This document shows, in pieces, positions 6,301-58,035 of a DNA stretch of 64,000 nt. The DNA is from Lineus longissimus (taxonomy: Eukaryota; Nemertea; Pilidiophora; Heteronemertea; Lineidae): the NCBI RefSeq assembly GCF_910592395.1, contig NC_088324.1, positions 13,790,953-13,854,952 of the forward strand, given 5' to 3'. Positions within the stretch are counted from its first letter, which is position 1. Every line of letters begins with the position of its first letter. The position numbers and the translations under genes are program-made. Below the pieces are notes generated by a model that was not told where the DNA came from, made no database searches, and saw nothing but the letters and a program-made list of their open reading frames with translations.

Positions 6301-9300
6301 ATGATTGGCTATTGCCTTCTCCTCGTGGTGGGATTTCTGACCTCACACACCAGGGCGGAATGTGATGATTATGATTACACTGCGGGTAAGTTTCATAAAA
6401 TGCCTGTCTCGATAAGTTATTTCAAATTACAATGACGTTTGACTACCACTTTTTCAACGCTGAAAAATTCTTCGCCCATCTGATGCGTCAGTGGTAGGCT
6501 GGTCCCTGCTAGAGACAATAAGATCATTCAGCGAACCTGGGTTTTATGGCTCTTTCGAAGGATTGTGAAGAGCCGAAAATTTACCTTCCTTGATAGCTAC
6601 GCCGGTTCATCCAGAAATACAATCCTGGTTTCTCCCCGGGATCGAATCCGGACTGACCCTACTGCGTGGGAGCAAAATATATATATTTTTTGTGGGTGCC
6701 AGCAGTGAAGCATAAGGCAAAAGTTCCTCGTCTATTCTTGGACCAACATATGTTTGACCTTGACTTTAACCTTCCAGATGGCTGCACTCTGGATGCCACG
6801 TGCTATATGTCCTTAATAGTGAACGGTAAAGGCGTTGGCAACGATGGATCCCCCAAGGATACCTACAACATCGGTGAGCGCATGAGAGTGGTTTGTGACG
6901 AGGGCTACATGATCGACAGGGGCGACTCGGAGGCGACGTGTCAAGATGATCTGACTTGGAGCTGGAGAGTGGAGCCTCGATGCGTTCCCAAACGTGAGTA
7001 CCGTGGTGGCGATTGGGCATCTCAGGCTCTCGCTAAAAAGGCCAAGGTTCATGAATTACAACTACATGAAAGCTATATTGTATCTAGGTATATCAACAAT
7101 TAACTTTGATGTTTGAGACTAGTTTTTAAATAGGATAAACGATGCGTAGGTCAAGTTGTTTGTTATTACAAGTTCCTGCTTGGGACAGGGGTCTGGACCA
7201 CTGTCAACATCAGGTGACAACACTTAACTCCCTTCTAGCTCCACCTCCTCCTTTGTGTACGGCATCGAAGGATATGGTCGAAGGAATGTACGTCAATCGC
7301 ACAGAGAAGGCGGCAGGCGGCGTCTATTGGAAGCTCTATGTGAATTGTTATGTGGATGAGGACTACTACCTGCATGGTCCCGGGGTGTACATCTGCGAAG
7401 GAACTACATGGAAGGGGAACAGCTTTTGCCTTAAGAGGCGTAAGTACCACTAAGCGTTTGGTGTAAAGGGTACAGGAGTCCTGGTGTAAAAGTCTGGAAT
7501 ATCTATTAGCGTGCTTGTCATATCTGAGGTATTGATTCTCTTGGCTAAGTTGGCCTGGTTAACGTTTTTTGCGAAAGTAACTCAAAGTAAGAACCACATG
7601 ACATTATCCGCCAGAATACAATATTACTCGTGTCCAATAAATCCATTTGGAAATACAGTATATATTCTACGAAATAACAATGCGTAGACTACATGTATCA
7701 TCCGATGATTGAGTTATCGGGTCTTCTGTTCCTTCTACGTCCCCTTCCTATTGCTCAGTCGAAAATGGTGACTCGGGGACGCCCTGGATTTAGCGCTAGC
7801 GCAGCTCTACAACGGAGTATCTGGAAACTTGATATTAACTGTTGGTGTCAGTACTTTGAGATCGACCCATGTTGGTAAAGGCACTAAATGGTCACCGTTA
7901 TTGAACTTCCCTCTTTTAGGTGTTTGTCCGAAGATCACTGCGCCAATCAATGGCTTTATCACAATCGGAGACATGAACTCTAGAAACGAAGGGGATGAGG
8001 TCCATTTCGGATGCAAGAGAGGGTACACGTTAATGGGGGATCGGAGATGGAGGTGCAAATCGACGCTAAGTTGGTCTGGTTATAACGTATTTTGCGAAAG
8101 TAAGTCAAAGTTAGTTTGCTTCCTAATAATTAGAACGATTTACCAGCCTGTACAGGCCCAAGGAAGAACTCAAGCGTACATTACCTATAGTGGACGTCAA
8201 CTCACGTTTTCTCAGTCTCGATGCAGGCATTCTGATCGGGTCACACCAGCCCGTTTTCAATTAATCACAGCCTCATAGTAAATGATAAGTAAACAAATGT
8301 GCTGTCTACATGTACATGTATGAAACCACTTTTTATTAGATGTTAGAAGTCACAACAATGTACCTGACCAATTCGTAGCGCCTGTTTATACTGTATGTTG
8401 CATCCATTCGATTTCAGAGGACCTGGGTATCGCAGGAATGGCAAAGGGAATACAGGAAAACATCATCGATAAATTCAAGCAACATACAGTTTCAGCGGCT
8501 AACAGGGGTAAGCGTGTTCGCCGTAGACAGGTCTAATACAACTTTCGTCCCGTTGAGAAGGTACTTGTATTTGTATATATATCTCGCGGCGCGCGGGACA
8601 CCACCTTTATCGGCCGCAGGGAGGCGTTTCAGTACATATAGTGTAAGAGCTATGACAACAGCTGGTCCGTGATGAGGCATTTGAATCAACACCTAATTTG
8701 AGGCATTTAAATCAACACCACTGTTGGCTGACTTCGGAACAAAATTTCCAGTTTTTGCATCCGGTTATGCGTGCGTATTGTTAAGTAACCGAAGTAACCA
8801 AACATGCCTTCTTTTCAGGCCGGATCTCCGCATCCAATGTTAATGGAATCGATCTGTTCTTCCTGGTGGACCGATCAGACAGCATTTCGGCGGGCGATTT
8901 TAAGATGGCGCGGGATTTCATCAACACATTGGTAGACTTTTTTGGAATCTCTAGCAAAGGAGGTAAGAGCTCACCTCAAAACAGATTTGGGTTGACGGAG
9001 GAGCCACTGTCAAAGAAAAAACCCTAGTTGCGAGTAATTTGCGTGATATGCGAAAGCATTTTAGAATACATGAACCAAATGGGTCTAATTTTTATTAGAG
9101 TTAGTGTCCCGTGGCCCCTTCCGCTGAGATCACGGAGTTTTCTTCAAAGAATTTGCTTGCAACGCATATAAAATCTCATGTTGTATCCCTGCTGGTTAAC
9201 GTACGTCTTTCTCCACACACGTTCTCTTCCTATTACTCAGCTACTACTTGTGTAGCCGTATTGGATTTTCCTTACTTCCCTGAGCACAAGGTTGTGCGCC

Positions 9301-44900: not shown

Positions 44901-47900
44901 TTCACCATTGTCCTGACGTGCAACCTTGGGGTACATTTAATTTTGCATTTTGTCGACCCCGTGACAATTAGATCTTTTTACGACCATGATATTCTCTGTG
45001 AAACACGAGAGTAAAAGGCACCAAACATTTGTGGTTTTAGAGTATTAGCGTTCACCCCACTATACAGTATACAATACAGTTGTATTCCTCCTCCATTTAG
45101 CAGGTGACAAGGATGGAAAGAAAAAGAAAAAACACAAGAAAAGTGACAGATCAAAGGAGGAGAAGAAGATCAAGACGGAGGGAGGAAACGGTGATGCGAA
45201 GGAGGGAAATGCAGACGACAAACTGAGGAGTTTAAAGATCAAAGACTTGAAAGATAAGATCAAAGAAGAAAACGATAAACTTGACAAACATAAACACAGA
45301 CATGGTCATAGTCATCATCACAAGTCGTCATCAAAAGATAAGGAACATCGTCGCCATAGTAACGATGGGGATAAACGCAAGGACGGTGATAAATCTGATA
45401 AACATCGCCATGATAAACATAGACGTCATGATGATAAGAAAAAAGATGGATTGGGGTCAGGTTCAAGTTCAAGACACAGAGATCATAGATTGCATTCAAA
45501 TAATTCAGATACCAGCACCCACAAAAAGACTGATGGAAACACTGCTAAAATAGAGACTCCTAATGTGAAAAAGGAAGAAAATAGTGGCAAATTAGACGTA
45601 CTTAAAAAACCTCTTAATAAGCGGACTAGTGAACATTTTCTGTCAAATGATATCAAACCAAAGGTGTTGAAGACGTCTTCATTACTAGACGTGAAGAGTG
45701 GTGTTGTGGATAGAAAGGACGGGAAAGAGCGGCCTAAGACTGTCAAACCTTTCACGACTAAGTTTCGTGATACTGGCTTGACGGAGCAGCCTTCATTGCC
45801 AGTGAGACGAAAAGTTGATGAGGTGGAGAGAGAGAAGTTAAAATTAGTCATCAAGAAAACACCGTAAGTGTCTGGGTGTTGAAAAGTGTGGTCTTATTTC
45901 TGTGATAGATTTTTTAAATGAAACATAAAAGAATGGTTGGCAATGGAATGCTAATTCATGTAAGGTGAAAGGGTAAAGCTAGCATTGTTCTCTATTCAAA
46001 CACTTGGATATTTTGAATAGAACGCAATGAAATAGCTCGATTTTCCCCATTTTACTATCATTCGTGTTTGTGTCATTTTGCCAAGGTTTTACAGACAATA
46101 AAATGTTTGTTGCAACTCTTTGTAACTTGGCTCATATCCACATGAAAAGATCGCTCTCTATTGCATGAGTTGTTAGTCATAAAGGCTGCAATATACCTCG
46201 ATGCTGTAAAAAAGTGTATTATGGTTGACAATCGACATCCCTTCTGCTAGTACTGGTATTTGACCTGATTCAGGACAATCGTGATCTAAATATTGTGCGG
46301 CGGGAAGAAGAAAATCCAGATGGGCATGTCTTGAAAAGCTGGATCACTTCTTAGTTTCAGGTTGCCATCCATTCCCCGCATCAAATCCAGGAACTTGTGA
46401 GAGTCTGGCATGGTCTAATCCCCTGCAACATTCTCCACACACTTCCTTTACTTCAAGTTATAATCCCACCTATTTTTTTCATTTCAAATTTAACCAATAG
46501 GCTGCAGTGGAAAATTTGGCCCGGGTAACTCACTGCACAGTGTAACTGTACAAAAAGTTTATTGTCCCCTACCTGTCCACTAAGACTGTCCTTCGCGTGC
46601 ACATTGGGAGATGACTTTGAATAGTTTTTCGCCCATTGCTTATAAGTCCATGCACAATGTGAAAAGCTCAAGCTTTTTGTGGTTATCAATGTTCAGACTA
46701 ATATTGGATGTCCTTGTTTCGAAAAGTAATAATGATTATTATTGTTATGACGCGATCTTCTATATTGAGACGGGTCATATGAACTTACAGTTCGCACTTA
46801 ACCACACTTTACGCAGCACATTGCAACACCCTGTCCTCAAAGAACCCAGTTGAAGTTTGCTTGGTCGTATGGGTTATTGTACCTGTAACACTGAGTGCTG
46901 AGTCTTGGTTCATCTTATCTTGAGAAAATAGTGACTGACAATATCCTACTCGCAACTTACAATGTCCATGCATGTTCTTCTGCCAAACAGGACTTGTGCA
47001 TGCCATTGAGCTCCTGATTCATCTTATTGCTTTGCAGATGATAATTTCCCACAGCAGCATCTAATTCTTGACTGTCTTTTATCATAATTTATACCATTTC
47101 TTTCTCTAGGAGTGGCAGTGCAATGGTCACAACCAGTACCAGCGCCACCTCCATCAGTTCAAACAACATCACCATCTCAAGTACAAGCACAACTACGACG
47201 AAACCTCTCGAGAGAAAACCAAGACCTGTTCTACCGGCCCCGGTTGTACGAACAAATAGTCAGGAGAACCAGAAATCTTCACCAACGGAAACATCACCGG
47301 GGAAAATCAAGCTCATTCCACCCCAAAAACGACCTAAGGCGTACGAATTGGCGGACAGTTCTGATTTCATGAATGCTTTAATTGCACCGCCACCAGTCGT
47401 GCCGCTCAAGAAGAAGCGGAAGACAAGTATTGGGACAATCGTCAAGCAACCGTCAACGCCAACGTCGCCTCCTACTCCTACAAAAAATGTGCCATCGGTA
47501 AGCATATCAGGGAAACTTGTGTCTCTTTGTCTTCTCTTCAAGGGAGACTTTTGGCGAGGACCCTTGAAGGTCAGATGATAGGTTACTTCAAGCCCCTATC
47601 TCATGCTATAGTTCTCCAAAGCTATTCACGCTTGTTCTTTCAGTTTTACAAAGAGACTCTTGATACGAGTGAGGTGAAACAAGATAAGGGATTAATGGGT
47701 GAGAGTGAGGATTTCCCCATGGCCGACGGAGAGCAAGGTGCGGCCAAGAAAGCTGAGATGAGCATGGCAGGTGGAGATGCCTCCAGCGCGACTGACACAG
47801 AATCCGTCGGTAGTCAGTCCTCAAATAATAACAACGGCAAGAAGAAGAAGAAGAAGACAGTTTCATGGCGTGATGAAAAGTTTTTACGATCTGTTCATTT

Positions 47901-50900
47901 CTTCGAGATGGATGAACATGAGAGAGGTAAGGTATTTGTCATGTTCTTGTCATGAATTATCATGACTGTAAACCTGGACAACTAGCTCTCTAACCACCAA
48001 TGTCAAGGTCAGAAAGCTCGAGCACTTGGGCCCTCTTTGCCAAAAGGTCAAGGAGCAGCTACAAAGTACTTCATTTTACATGTTTTTAATGCGACATGTT
48101 TTCCTTTTTTACAGTGAATGTGAATAAGCACAACTTTGAGGACATGAAGAAGCAAGAAATGGCGACTGAACGTCATGGGATGGAGAGGGCCAAGGCTATC
48201 AGTGCTGATAAAATGGCCGAGAAGATGACAGTAAGTGACTTTTCAGGGAAGATCGTTGGGAGTTGTGTGTGAGAGGTGTCTGGCTTTTAGACGGTATCAC
48301 TTGCCCGTAATCGAATACATCATTGTGAGAACAGCACTGTTGTCTAGAATCCAGCGTCTACATGTACATGGTCATGCACATGTACATTTACATGTACATG
48401 ATGTACATGTACATACAAGCAATAAAATGACAGTTTATTGGGGAGATGCTGGTCAGCGCTTTATGTAGGTTTTGTGAAATTGTTATTTTCGAATTCACCC
48501 CAGGCCTAGGATTTGAGCATCTGATGCATAAAAGATTACAAGAATGTAGACATGTATGTAGGCCTAACTATTTCGCCTCTGTCAATCAGAACGGGATAAA
48601 TTTTTCTCTCCATCCATCTCTAAAAGTGATTCATGTATATTTTCAGTGGAGACGACCTTCCCTGATCTCCAATCTGACTCCGAGGACTACTGAACATGGT
48701 GCTAGGAGCACGGAGCGTGACGTCCAAAGGTCTCGAGAACAGGGAGTCTTACAGGCGATTTTCTTCTCAAAGGAGATGTGAGTTTTACAAAATGAATTCT
48801 CTCCGCATGAATTCTGAAAGAGAATGAGTCCCTTTGTGTGTTGTAATAGAAATCTTCTGGAAAAAAGTGTAAGTCAGAAAACTAATGACATTTCGTTTCA
48901 TTTTCAGGATCCCTGATACTCCAATGGAGCCAGAAATGGAGAACACTGATGTTGAAGAACCGAGGATTATACCTTTAGAAGATGTAAGTAGAATTATACA
49001 TGATCGTTCTGTTGTACTGAAATAAGGACTGGTTGTCAGACCTTCCTGACCTTCACTCGGTGAGTTTGTCGGTGACCAATATTTGTTTGTTTGCAGGAAA
49101 GCACTGGTGAGGACGCCTATGTCCCAACAGACGATTCTACGCAGGGTCAGCAACAACAACAGCAACATGACACTACATCTGGTGACAATCAACAAACCAT
49201 GGACCAAATTGCCGCTGGTGGTCAAGCTCAAGCCTCTCTGCCTCCAGAAATCGCCAGTCTCCTGGGGCAGATCTCTTCCCAGGTGGGGGCTCAGAACCCC
49301 CCTGCCATCTCGGCCTCAGACACGTCAACGTCAGCTATGCAAGCCCCTGCCCTACCACCTCAGATCACAGGCATGCTGGAGACGTTAACACAGAATGCTC
49401 AACAACCAATTGGGGCTGTTGACCCCATTACTGGTGCTGCTCCAGATCCCAGCTCCATCCTCACAAGTGTGCAGAGTTTGCTCACAAATTTCATGGTAAG
49501 CATTGCTGACGTTCTTCAGTATCTCGTCAGCAGTTTCACCCGATGTGCCTTGTCACAGCCTCAGATCTGCTCAGTACTGGACATGTCAATCAAGTGTGAG
49601 AGGGTAAAGCTAGTGGAAATTGATATTTGTCCAATCAATACTGCTGCAATCATTGTAATAATGCCCACCAATTCTCTTGCACTCTTAAGTAATTTCTGTA
49701 TTATTTGATTACTTTTATTACTTATTGCTCTCTTTTCTTCTGACTCTCTATCTACACTGCACTTCTGTTTATTGTATTTTCGTCCCATGTAAAATGTAAA
49801 TTTTATACGGATTCAATAAACTTTTGTAATTTGTAATTTGTAAAAATTCTTTCATTGATTGATGTACGCGTATTTTATACTTAAACAAACTTTGATGACA
49901 TATTTAGAACTTTGCTAAAAGATGAATCTGTCAAAGCAGAAGTGTCAACAACAGTCTCAGGTCTCATTATTCCAATCATTCTTGCCCTTCGCCATCAAAG
50001 GATCCTCTTTGGCTCGAGGTACTTAGGCGTGTGTGTTGTCAGGTCATTTGATGTACCCTGATCTGCACTGGGGAATGTCCAATCACCTGGGTGTTGTTAC
50101 AATGGGTTCAGTTCAGTGGCAGTTGTGTCTTGTGTTGGTTACACTTAGTAATAGTTTCGTTTAGCAGAAAACTTCATGTTGCATGCAAAAGTAGTTGCCA
50201 TTCAGTTACCAAAAAGCTGATAAATGGCTAGGCAAATCTAGCAATCTCTATATGTTAGCAAGTCATACCAGTTTGTCAATGAACACAAACCAGGGAATAC
50301 TATGTATCTGTTTAGATAACCGCTGCTTTGGTCAAAAGACGACTGGACAGGAAAGTAAGGACACTTGCGAGTCTGCATATCTTATGTTATCTGTTTCTTC
50401 TTCTCACAGGGCCAGAATGGTAACCCTGAGGTGCCAAACCAGGACCAAGCTCAACACGATGTTCTCACAGAAAAACTCAAGCAGATCCTGGAGCCTTTCC
50501 AAAAGCAACTGGCTGGTGAGTAATCCGAAGGAAAAATGTCAATGACATCATTTAATATATCAAAGTGTCTCAATGCTCACAAGGATGAACTGGGACGAAG
50601 TTATTTTGCCCTGTACTGAACACTTCACAACTTTTCAAATTCCTTATTCCTTATTCTTTCATTTACTTTCTAGGCACGATGGCACCTCCTCCAGCTGGTA
50701 TGATGTTGCCTCATGGGGCTGCCCCACCACCATTCCCGATCCCAATGCCACCGCCTGTTGGCCCCGATGGCAAGATCTTGCCACCACCCCCTGGCATCCG
50801 TTTCCCTCCAGGAATGATCCCCACAGGTGTACCGCCACCGCTTGGTGGAATCCCTGGAGTACCTGTGGTTGGTCGGCCACAAATGAGACCTCCTTTCCCA

Positions 50901-53560: not shown

Positions 53561-53848
53561 AGTTATGTTCATTAGATATATCCATTCTTCAGATCATTAG
53601 TCTGTGTATCTTTTTGTCGTCATGATATTTCTGGAGTCGCTGTTTCGTGACACATAGTAACTAGGACAAGAATGCTAGACGACGCTAACGGGAGGTATTC
53701 CGTTCTTCGTACTGGTGCTCTTACTGTCCGATTCTTGGTCCGTGTCCGGTATCCCATACTTCACACCTTCTTTGCCGAGAAGCCAATACGTCTGCATCGT
53801 TGATCGATCCTGCAAGAAATGGCACAACTTCCATCACACAAAAAAGAC

Positions 53849-54247: not shown

Positions 54248-57200
54248 TTAGATTTTGGACGTATATATCATAAAGAAATAAATCCTAAAAGGGTCCACTT
54301 CAACAAAAACCTGCAGGCTACCAGCGATGTGAGTTGCCTTTACTTGCCACCAGGTGGCTTTTATCACCCAGCGTTAGCAGCATATCTGAGACTTGAACTT
54401 ACCTTTAGGGTTATAACTGCTGCCTTTTCCATCTGAAACATGCCAGTGTTTTGCAGCACCTTGTAACAATGTTCTGAGATCTGTATCTTCATTGCGCAAC
54501 TCGAGTACATCAGAGTAATGGCCGCGTTGATTGCGTCACCGAATATGACGTAGTTTCCGGCACTGTTACCAAGAACTCCCGACTGGACAGGTCCGCAATG
54601 AAGGCCACAGCGGCAGATGATGTTCTTCAAAGAGTCTGTGGATTCTTCAGGCTGTCAGTGAAATGTGAACTTTATTGAAAACCGTAAAAAATGGCCGGTA
54701 AAAATGAGTATAAACGATCACAGGATAGCCTTTGTTAAGGTCAATTCTGACTGATCAGACATCCCCTTAAACCGCAACCAATCTAACTGCCTTTTTGAAA
54801 GCAATATTGGCCGTATAAACCTATCTCCAAAAATGTGCTTAAGTAGCACTGTTTTCAGTACATACATGATGTTTAATCAATGATGGCAAAGAATTGGACC
54901 AAAAGCGGTACGTAAAGATAACTTTAGTTGCTATTGGGTTAGCTTACCTGATATTTCGAGATGGCCAGATTGACCAGTTCCAGAGCCAGCGCCGCCATCC
55001 GGAGCACATGTTTCTTCCCGAACTTTTTGGTCAAACCGGAAACGCAGATGACCGTATCCCCGAACAATTGAACCTTGTATATGTCTCGTCTCTTACCAAC
55101 AATGACGTCAATATCACGATGTAATTCACTCAAAAGCTGCATATTTTTGTCTGGTTTGTTTTCCTGGCAGGCCGCAGCGAGGTTGTTCAACTCCACAACC
55201 AACAACGCGACTGATTTATGCTCCTGTGGCGGCACAGACTCGTTGTTGACGAGTTTCTGCGCCACAAAGTTCGGCACATTGGCGAAGAGCAACTGCTCCA
55301 TATTCGCCTTCGCCGAGGTCAATTCAGAAGTCCTCTCTTCGACTTTCTCCTCCAATTGGATGGTGTATTCCTCCATCGCTTCCATCATGCTATCTAACAT
55401 GTTTTTCTTCGTTGGGTTGGCGTGTTTGAGCATTTTTGCGATTTGTTCAAAGCTTGGGCGCGTACTCGAATCATCCGCCCAAGCTATTTCCATTATTTGC
55501 CGGATCCGTACGGGGGACTCGTCCGTATGCTCCGGGCGTAGACAGTTGTTAACAACAGCCTTGAGAACATCGTCCGGGTTCATCACATCTGCGTGCTCAG
55601 CATAGGGGTCCTCACGACTGAAAATCTCCTGAAGAATTATGGCAAAACTGTAGATATCACAACTTTGTGAAACATCAATGTCAAAATTCGCCCTCAGGAT
55701 CTCTGGTGCTGTCCAAAACTCCCGAAATGCAGCTTGTTGTTTTCCTACATCGTCTGCGTTTGGTCTGATCGCCAACAAGGGGCTCTTCTTCTGTTTTAAG
55801 GTTTCGTAAAGATGGACGTATTCCCAGTCTGTAATCTTGACCGTCCATCGTGAATCTATTATACAACACGAAGACTTTAGATTCCCATGGACGACGCCGT
55901 GAGAATGAAGATAGCACATCCCCGCCACGATATCCGTGGCTAAACTGAATTTTATATCGTTATTCAAAGTAAACTTCTCATCCTGAAGAATGTCTAGCAT
56001 TGGCCCCTTCGCGCAATATTCACTGACAACATACCGGTCAGCATCAACTAGAGTAAGCCCGTGGAACCTCAACACATTCTGATGGATAATGTTGTCTCTG
56101 ATCCACAATAACATGCGCTTTGTCGACTGAGACAAATCGTTCATGTCCGATATGTTCATAAGCCTGATTCCTATAGTGTGCCCCTTCCATTTCCCTGGCC
56201 ACTGGATGATCTGAGAGACGAGGGCATCGTTGTCATCCAACGCAGTGAGGTCCTCACTCGTCAAAGACGTGAACGAAACCCTGGACTTTCCAAACAGAGA
56301 ACGACTCGTTGACCCCATCTTCCTCTGGTTATAGAAGAACAAAATATCATCTAACGGTATATCCCATTCGTTGCTGTTAATCATTTTCCATAGTTTGTAC
56401 TTCTGGTAAAAGAGATAGCCAACAAGAAATCCGATCAAAACTAACGCAATGGGTAACGTTATAGCCACAGGTAAGAGCCATGTTTTTGGTACTATAGCTT
56501 CGGTTTCCTTCGCCTTCAACATCAGCTGATACGCATCTTCATTGCTTTTGCTTCCACACTTCATTGTCTTCAGAATAGTATCTCTGATCTCATCAGCCAG
56601 AAGCTTACTAATTGAGACCATTTGGTACAAACTGCAGATATCCCTAGCTTCTGTTTCGTAAAGGAACCATTCAATATAGCGTATCAATTCTATGGTTGCA
56701 TCACAATTGTCATTGTGGTGGCTGTGTATGATGAAGTAGGAAAAACTTGAGAGAGGGTAGGAATTTGCCCCTCTTGCGCTGAAGAGGTCGGTTACGAAGG
56801 AACTAGAACTTTTCATCCTATCACGTTGCTGGTTCATTGCATTAATGACATTTTGTAAGGTACTGTCCACAAAATGGCCGTCCCTGTTCTCAATTCGCGC
56901 TCTGCCTATGTCTGCATTACCAGCTATGTCAGCGGCGGAAAGATATCCGATGGTATACCGGATGGAGGTGAGAATCCCCGCCATGCCTGATGTCTTTTTG
57001 CCGTAATACATGATTGTATCATTCCGCCAGTGGTACGGCAGCCATGTTTTCGGGTTGAGACCATTCTCGAAGGTGCCGTAGGTCTGGTTCCACTGTGTCG
57101 AAAAATAGCTCAGAGCCTTTGTTAAGGCTTTCGTGGTCCCGGACTTATCTGCTCGGACCACAGGAAGGATCCGTGCAATTGGAAGCGGGACATTGGGGTT

Positions 57201-58035
57201 AGCCGCTGACAGAGATGTGTCGTTCCACCATTTGATAGTTCCGTTGAAAATTCCAACCAATTGGTGGGAACCTAAGTTGAGTTGCTGAGATGATGGTAGG
57301 CCAGGTATGTTGTAAGCGATCACGATTGCTCTGAAAGAGAAATAACCGTTTCGGGAATTGTTTTAGCGTGAGCAGGCCGTTCCCTCAGCGAGTTTTCTTC
57401 ACATCCAACTTGCTACAGCATTAAGAATGCCTTCTTAAAGTTTTTGAATTTGGAAAAAGTCAAGCAGGGCACGCTGCCCTGAAGAAGGTGAAGGGGCAGG
57501 GCTGGCTGTCGGGGCGTTTTGGCGGCTAAAACTTACCCAGCAAGTGAGGGAAATATAACCAAGTCCTTAACATGCTCTTTTTCTGTCGTTGAAAAGTCCA
57601 CATCCGACCCGGCGTACATGTAGCCGTTGTCATTATTCAAGATGGACGTTTTCCCTTCCCCACTTCCGACGGGCTCATACGTCATGTTCAGGAGAACATA
57701 GTCCCGGCGTTCGGCTGAGAAACTGCTCTGCCATCTTAGGTATACCTACGGAGGAATAAACTTTTCAGGGACGGATCGAGGAATTTGGTGAGGAGAGGGG
57801 TTCACTTTGTGACAATCGAAGATCACTACTTTGTGGTCAGAAATGAAGAGGCGCGGTACAGACGCTAAGCTTTCAACTCAATTCTTTTTGAACGGACTGA
57901 TCTAGTTTGGCCTACCTCTGCAGGGAAACTGGCGCCCCCTCCATTGATGCCAATACTCTCTTCACCGTTGGTTGACTTGATCTGGGTGAGGAGCGTCGAA
58001 ATGACTGCAGCAGTGATGTAGATCGCATCATTCAT
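54248..58035 (-). CDS. PstS-like phosphate-binding receptor with guanylate cyclase-like cytoplasmic part
   Basis: In transcript order the exons are 58035-57916, 57745-57537, 57330-54948, 54651-54403 and, tentatively, 54310-54248; about 1007 residues. Residues 30-345 match periplasmic phosphate-binding protein PstS over its length: NGGGASFPAEVY, YEPVGSGEG, YAGSDVDFS, IAYNIPGL, GIFNGTIKWWND, VVRADKSGTTK. Positions aligned to the E. coli phosphate ligands are S36, F37, S68, D88, R169, S173, G174 and T175, changed only Thr to Ser at the first. One membrane helix follows (393-416), then a kinase-homology domain (about 480-745) with receptor-cyclase hallmark VVHGNLKSS and no catalytic Asp. After it come the dimerisation coiled coil (LEEKVEERTSEL) and a cyclase domain (813-987). 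The cyclase has Glu823 for the first metal Asp, Gln864 for the guanine-selecting Glu and Thr950 for the transition-state Arg; D868 and N946 remain. The start is preceded by an in-frame stop and the signal sequence is weak, so the N-terminus is provisional. Confidence 0.85.

Follow-up and report, generated by a model that had tools for sequence, protein, structure and literature searches.

A PstS-type ectodomain on a receptor guanylate cyclase-like protein of the nemertean Lineus longissimus, with altered catalytic residues and a candidate role in phosphate sensing

Could a bacterial-type phosphate-binding protein serve an animal as the outer part of a receptor cyclase, and what would such a receptor do? 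The question arises from a 64,000-nucleotide stretch of the Lineus longissimus genome (the window), in which the initial annotation had recognized a PstS-like domain joined to an animal receptor guanylate cyclase-like protein. The gene lies on the minus strand of the window, from 58035 to 53675, and its five exons encode a predicted protein of 1031 aa, in which a PstS-like ectodomain is followed by one membrane helix, a kinase-homology domain, a coiled coil and a cyclase domain. Our spliced model is identical at every letter to P0001, the NCBI entry "atrial natriuretic peptide receptor 1-like [Lineus longissimus]". Its features are as follows.

57916..58035, minus strand: exon 1; N-terminal segment, a putative signal peptide, then the beginning of PstS with S36 and F37
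57537..57745, minus strand: exon 2; PstS domain, with S68 and D88
54948..57330, minus strand: exon 3; remaining PstS, membrane helix, kinase-homology domain, coiled coil and first part of the cyclase
56529..57330, minus strand: PstS ectodomain, exon 3 part (to residue 377), with R169, D171, S173, G174 and T175
56397..56477, minus strand: membrane helix, about residues 395-421 (hydropathy; AlphaFold2 helix 395-428)
55425..56192, minus strand: kinase-homology domain, about residues 490-745; HGN replaces HRD at 591-593
55278..55400, minus strand: helix of the coiled-coil or signalling-helix region, residues 754-794 (AlphaFold2 prediction)
54948..55232, minus strand: cyclase domain, exon 3 part, with E823, Q864 and D868
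54403..54651, minus strand: exon 4; cyclase domain, with V939, N946 and T950
53675..53809, minus strand: exon 5; end of the cyclase domain, C-terminus and stop codon

The three exons first proposed (58035-57916, 57745-57537 and 57330-54948) are present with GT/AG borders, and the end of PstS, the membrane helix and the kinase-homology domain do share one uninterrupted exon, exon 3. The interval first given, 54948..58035, corresponds to exons 1-3, but its product of 1007 residues had to be revised, since exons 4 and 5 finish the cyclase and bring the protein to 1031 aa. Five AGs were tried as the start of exon 4; the frame stays open to the stop codon from 54651 and 54624 only, and 54651 agrees with P0001. 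On the plus strand, the window also holds an open frame at 7772-8278 with a Sushi repeat (7.6e-08) and another at 47365-47955, without a Pfam match, whose KKKKKKTVSW stretch is reminiscent of the phosphatase regulator PNUTS.

The gene is a true nuclear gene, as had been claimed: it is spliced, matches the NCBI prediction and has relatives with the same domain order. It lies on contig C17, about 13.8 Mb into a 16.3-Mb contig of a 391-Mb genome in 30 contigs; together these observations rule out an assembly artefact or bacterial contamination. A PF12849 profile search of the Lineus genome gave two candidates, both of them matched: the window gene and a gene on contig C11. The C11 paralogue (C11:17962939-17964012) has the same architecture and comprises four exons; for the first of these there are two candidates, both supplying a start codon as well as the N-terminus of PstS, whereas P0044, the NCBI version, begins at residue 77 of our model. 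The two genes have introns in common at alignment columns 476 (phase 2) and 1573 (phase 0), whereas the first intron is placed differently and the cyclase part of the window gene carries an additional one. Because the domain order recurs in other species and at this second Lineus locus, the fusion reflects more than chance or a chimeric assembly.

The ectodomain is a PstS by sequence and predicted fold. It matches PstS in the PDB by sequence (E 3.9e-32), Pfam assigns residues 24-333 to PBP_like_2 (PF12849, E 8.2e-20), and the predicted structure has the two-lobed PstS fold, aligned to E. coli PstS over 321 of 321 residues. Its TIGR00975 score (NCBIfam PstS equivalog; 165.8 bits, E 1.2e-48) is below the cut-off of 205, as is that of the Owenia protein (203.4). 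Nine positions could be mapped onto the phosphate ligands of E. coli PstS (S36, F37, S68, D88, R169, D171, S173, G174 and T175 in the window protein); eight are identical and T10 has become S. All except D171 had been named in the initial annotation, and the alignment places them correctly. Up to E 1, the window protein matches four Pfam families, PK_Tyr_Ser-Thr (1.3e-32) and Guanylate_cyc (PF00211, 7.1e-30) among them; ANF_receptor is absent, which rules out an ordinary ANF receptor.

A single membrane helix separates the ectodomain from the kinase-homology domain, with hydropathy windows starting at 388-402. The N-terminus, a putative signal peptide, is predicted as a helix (AlphaFold2, residues 2-20), but its weak hydrophobicity (best 19-residue mean 1.18, against 1.75 in the C11 protein) speaks against this assignment. 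N-glycosylation sequons amount to 11.2 per 1000 residues in the ectodomains of 18 chosen family members (72 in 6,414 residues) and 5.9 in the cytoplasmic parts (61 in 10,371), compared with 3.1 in the 25 prokaryote-like PstS rows P0070-P0094. The excess is not uniform, since in five of the 18 (P0010, P0017, P0045, P0047 and P0052) the cytoplasmic part, which is also longer, has more sequons, but overall their density favours a PstS ectodomain that probably faces the outside of the cell. In the kinase-homology domain, HGN stands for HRD, so that the HRD Asp is missing, and DWE occupies the place of DFG.

Is the cyclase still an enzyme? Its best PDB match is NPR1 (2.9e-38), against which we read the six catalytic positions of the class III cyclase domain. 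Only D868 and N946 are kept; E823 (D to E), Q864 (E to Q), V939 (C to V) and T950 (R to T) are changed. T950 replaces the transition-state arginine, and Q864 and V939 the base-reading glutamate and cysteine. The changes point strongly, if not finally, to a loss of cyclase activity, although E823 may still hold metal and, with N946 kept, residual activity may persist. The initial description as an animal receptor-cyclase-like protein thus stands for the architecture and the PstS ectodomain, but with four of six catalytic positions changed the window protein alone is unsupported as a working receptor cyclase. The C11 paralogue keeps all six (cyclase against NPR1, 1.7e-66).

Altered cyclases recur across the family. 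The cyclase is complete in 32 of the 44 aligned rows (43 picked proteins plus the C11 model); 26 of these are altered and six intact, and the other 12 are incomplete. The six intact rows represent five genes, because P0044 and the C11 model describe one gene, P0044 beginning at residue 77. Among the altered rows, seven keep none of the six positions, nine keep one, six keep two, one keeps three and three keep four; the arginine survives in two, P0013 and P0059. P0013 (four of six) counts as altered in the 26-row figures and as intact in the 16-row comparison and the family tree.

The ligand site is largely kept. All nine ligand columns are filled in 24 of the 44 rows, the window protein included, and 21 of these carry the same nine letters as the window protein; P0006 (F37I), P0007 (T175S) and P0011 of Octopus (D88E, D171S) depart. 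In the other 20, part of the N-terminal lobe is absent; substitutions among these include S at 175 in P0012 and P0057, E at 171 in P0048 and A at 36 in the fragment P0021. Of the 20 altered-cyclase rows with all nine columns, 17 keep every position, both acidic residues D88 and D171 included; the two intact rows that could be assessed also match, one of them being the C11 model with its predicted first exon. Across the 26 altered rows, PstS has a mean pairwise identity of 0.47, the kinase-homology domain 0.41 and the cyclase 0.23 (0.46, 0.39 and 0.22 without five close relatives), versus 0.51, 0.37 and 0.64 among the five intact genes (0.56, 0.43 and 0.67 when P0044, the second row of the C11 gene, is added). 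In a set of 16 chosen altered rows, to which alone the hypergeometric values apply and in which relatedness is ignored, each of the nine ligand columns is kept in at least 15, against 70 of 305 ectodomain columns (p 1e-6), and five of the nine are invariant, against 51 of 305 (p 0.008). Widening the set from 16 to 26 rows left the identities unchanged (0.47, 0.41, 0.23) and reduced the invariant PstS columns of 305 from 54 to 37 with gaps ignored and from 51 to 17 with gaps counted.

Homologue searches, each scoring at most 7,994 candidates, found PstS-kinase-cyclase proteins in at least two nemerteans, 16 mollusc species and the annelid Owenia. Moreover, P0019 ('Nk52_...') carries two PstS domains ahead of kinase and cyclase and keeps four of six catalytic positions; the Nk52 prefix is that of the ichthyosporean Chromosphaera perkinsii (PMC6981761). 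The proposed order of binding protein, membrane helix, kinase and cyclase therefore recurs beyond Lineus, and these relatives rule out a single-species oddity. PstS-like domains were also seen in other settings: in P0106, P0110 (Heterosigma) and P0121 they are joined to 7tm_3, the seven-helix domain of class C receptors, a further case of PstS within a receptor, and the 1534-aa EukProt protein P0009 has four PstS-like stretches by our custom profile and three by Pfam.

A quick tree was built from 72 rows and a careful one from 46, chosen out of 199 PstS domains; both are rooted on E. coli PstS. Eukaryotic and prokaryotic rows are split at 99 (quick) and 100/99 (careful), the animal rows form one group (98 and 100/99), and the protist rows without Chromosphaera form a separate group (98 and 100/98). 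Chromosphaera adjoins the animals in both trees, with support of 84 in the quick one, which gives its first domain a long branch, and 97/83 in the careful one, for which the bootstrap fell just short of convergence. Closest among the prokaryotic rows are metagenome proteins that begin with a lipobox-like stretch, followed by a group with the Anaerolineae record L013 and then by L015-L017 (Chloroflexota); the Chloroflexota record L022 is placed apart. In these trees, the sampled eukaryotic PstS domains are one group beside Chloroflexota-type PstS. Since the prokaryotes were sampled by likeness, a Chloroflexota-type donor is a lead. A family tree built without the cyclase from 25 of the 44 rows (19 were omitted as partial or close relatives) groups the window gene with Tubulanus, Patella, Haliotis, chiton, bivalve and Octopus rows at 100/98. 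Intact rows (P0013 included) and altered rows (Chromosphaera included) are split at just 72/88, so one origin of the altered cyclases or several would fit.

Our best reading, drawn from sequence and predicted structure, is an ancient extracellular phosphate receptor of the receptor-cyclase type and a candidate direct phosphate sensor. The two-lobed ectodomain would bind inorganic phosphate outside the cell, and closure of its lobes would act through the membrane helix on the kinase-homology domain and coiled coil. As its own cyclase probably makes no cGMP as a homodimer, the window protein would most likely be a regulatory subunit or a scaffold. We therefore consider it reasonably probable that this is a type I phosphate receptor and probable pseudocyclase, whose output would pass through a regulatory-subunit role, possibly in a dimer with the intact C11 paralogue, or through a non-enzymatic signalling scaffold. 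A broader scenario, which we offer tentatively, is that a Chloroflexota-type PstS was fused to a receptor cyclase before animals arose, and that lophotrochozoans still use a direct high-affinity phosphate receptor, one paralogue being a ligand-sensing pseudocyclase that controls an intact partner.

Other readings were weighed against this one. A specific form of the regulatory-subunit reading, possible though doubtful in our judgement, has the two Lineus proteins form one complete site, to which the window protein contributes the metal side and the C11 paralogue the side for the base and the transition state. In the window protein E823 and D868 stay acidic whereas E, C and R opposite them have been replaced, a partner with six of six is present in the same genome, and ODR-1/DAF-11 is a precedent (PMC5225109). 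However, D2 is replaced by C in Octopus and the pectinid rows, and none of the six positions survives in P0047 and P0049, the second Haliotis paralogues, so this division cannot fit every member. That the window protein alone is a working phosphate-gated guanylate cyclase, its altered residues still permitting catalysis, is highly improbable: D1 is still acidic, D868 and N946 are unchanged and the predicted domain still matches GC-A (AlphaFold2), but R is T, E and C are Q and V, and the arginine is so rarely kept among altered relatives (2/26, P0013 and P0059).

Two further readings concern the ectodomain. Receptors often change ligand, and position 171 differs in Octopus and P0048; yet a turn to a phosphorylated organic molecule, another anion such as arsenate, or a peptide seems unlikely given the 17 of 20 altered rows with the full site, D88 and D171 among its residues. 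PstS serves uptake in bacteria, and P0066 and P0067, models from Haliotis and Nucella, stop shortly past the membrane span, as a membrane-held phosphate scavenger or decoy without signalling might. These short models may be partial predictions, however, and the kinase-homology domain is kept in frame at the mean identity of 0.41 in the altered rows, which makes such a role very unlikely.

Searches of titles and abstracts, in a collection that lacks most subscription journals and all preprints, yielded no description of a PstS ectodomain in a receptor cyclase. The oyster has 23 receptor cyclases according to PMC4883820, whose available text contains neither 'PBP' nor 'phosphate-binding'. In the available portions, PMC12716839 does not mention PstS, PBP, phosphate-binding, periplasmic, Venus or guanylate cyclase, PMC9849996 lacks 'phosphate-binding', PMC5439949 lacks the ligand residues, and PMC3237598 names a PstS of diatom lists in one table row. 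Candidate mammalian phosphate sensors are PiT2, the calcium-sensing receptor, FGFR1c and, earlier, PiT1 (2021 review, PMC8199323). A receptor with a dedicated PstS site would differ from these in kind, and with it extracellular phosphate sensing would become directly testable. Retention of the ligand site during decay of the enzyme would also offer a clear example of a receptor enzyme becoming a pseudoenzyme with its ligand retained.

Among known systems, ODR-1/DAF-11 of C. elegans is an obligate heterodimeric receptor cyclase with one shared catalytic site, and some nematode receptor cyclases sense ions (PMC5225109, which in the part available mentions neither PstS nor phosphate); both make a partner model plausible, the partner of the window protein being a candidate only. 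P0015 (814 aa), bacterial by likeness, likewise unites a protein kinase, a hydrophobic span (2.29 at residue 434) and PstS, but as a separate join, with the kinase first, PstS last, no cyclase and a different place in the PstS tree. Prokaryotic PstS, most nearly the Chloroflexota/Anaerolineae type, has the fold and phosphate-site positions in common with the window protein and, in the nearest rows and by eye, a C-terminal C-x-G stretch; unlike it, the window domain lacks a lipobox and is part of a spliced receptor gene rather than a transporter subunit. An ANF_receptor ectodomain is usual, though not universal, in receptor guanylate cyclases. NPR1/GC-A and GC-C share with the window protein one membrane helix, a kinase-homology domain without the HRD Asp, a coiled coil and a class III cyclase, from which it differs in its PstS-type ectodomain, without an ANF_receptor match, and in its four changed catalytic positions of six.
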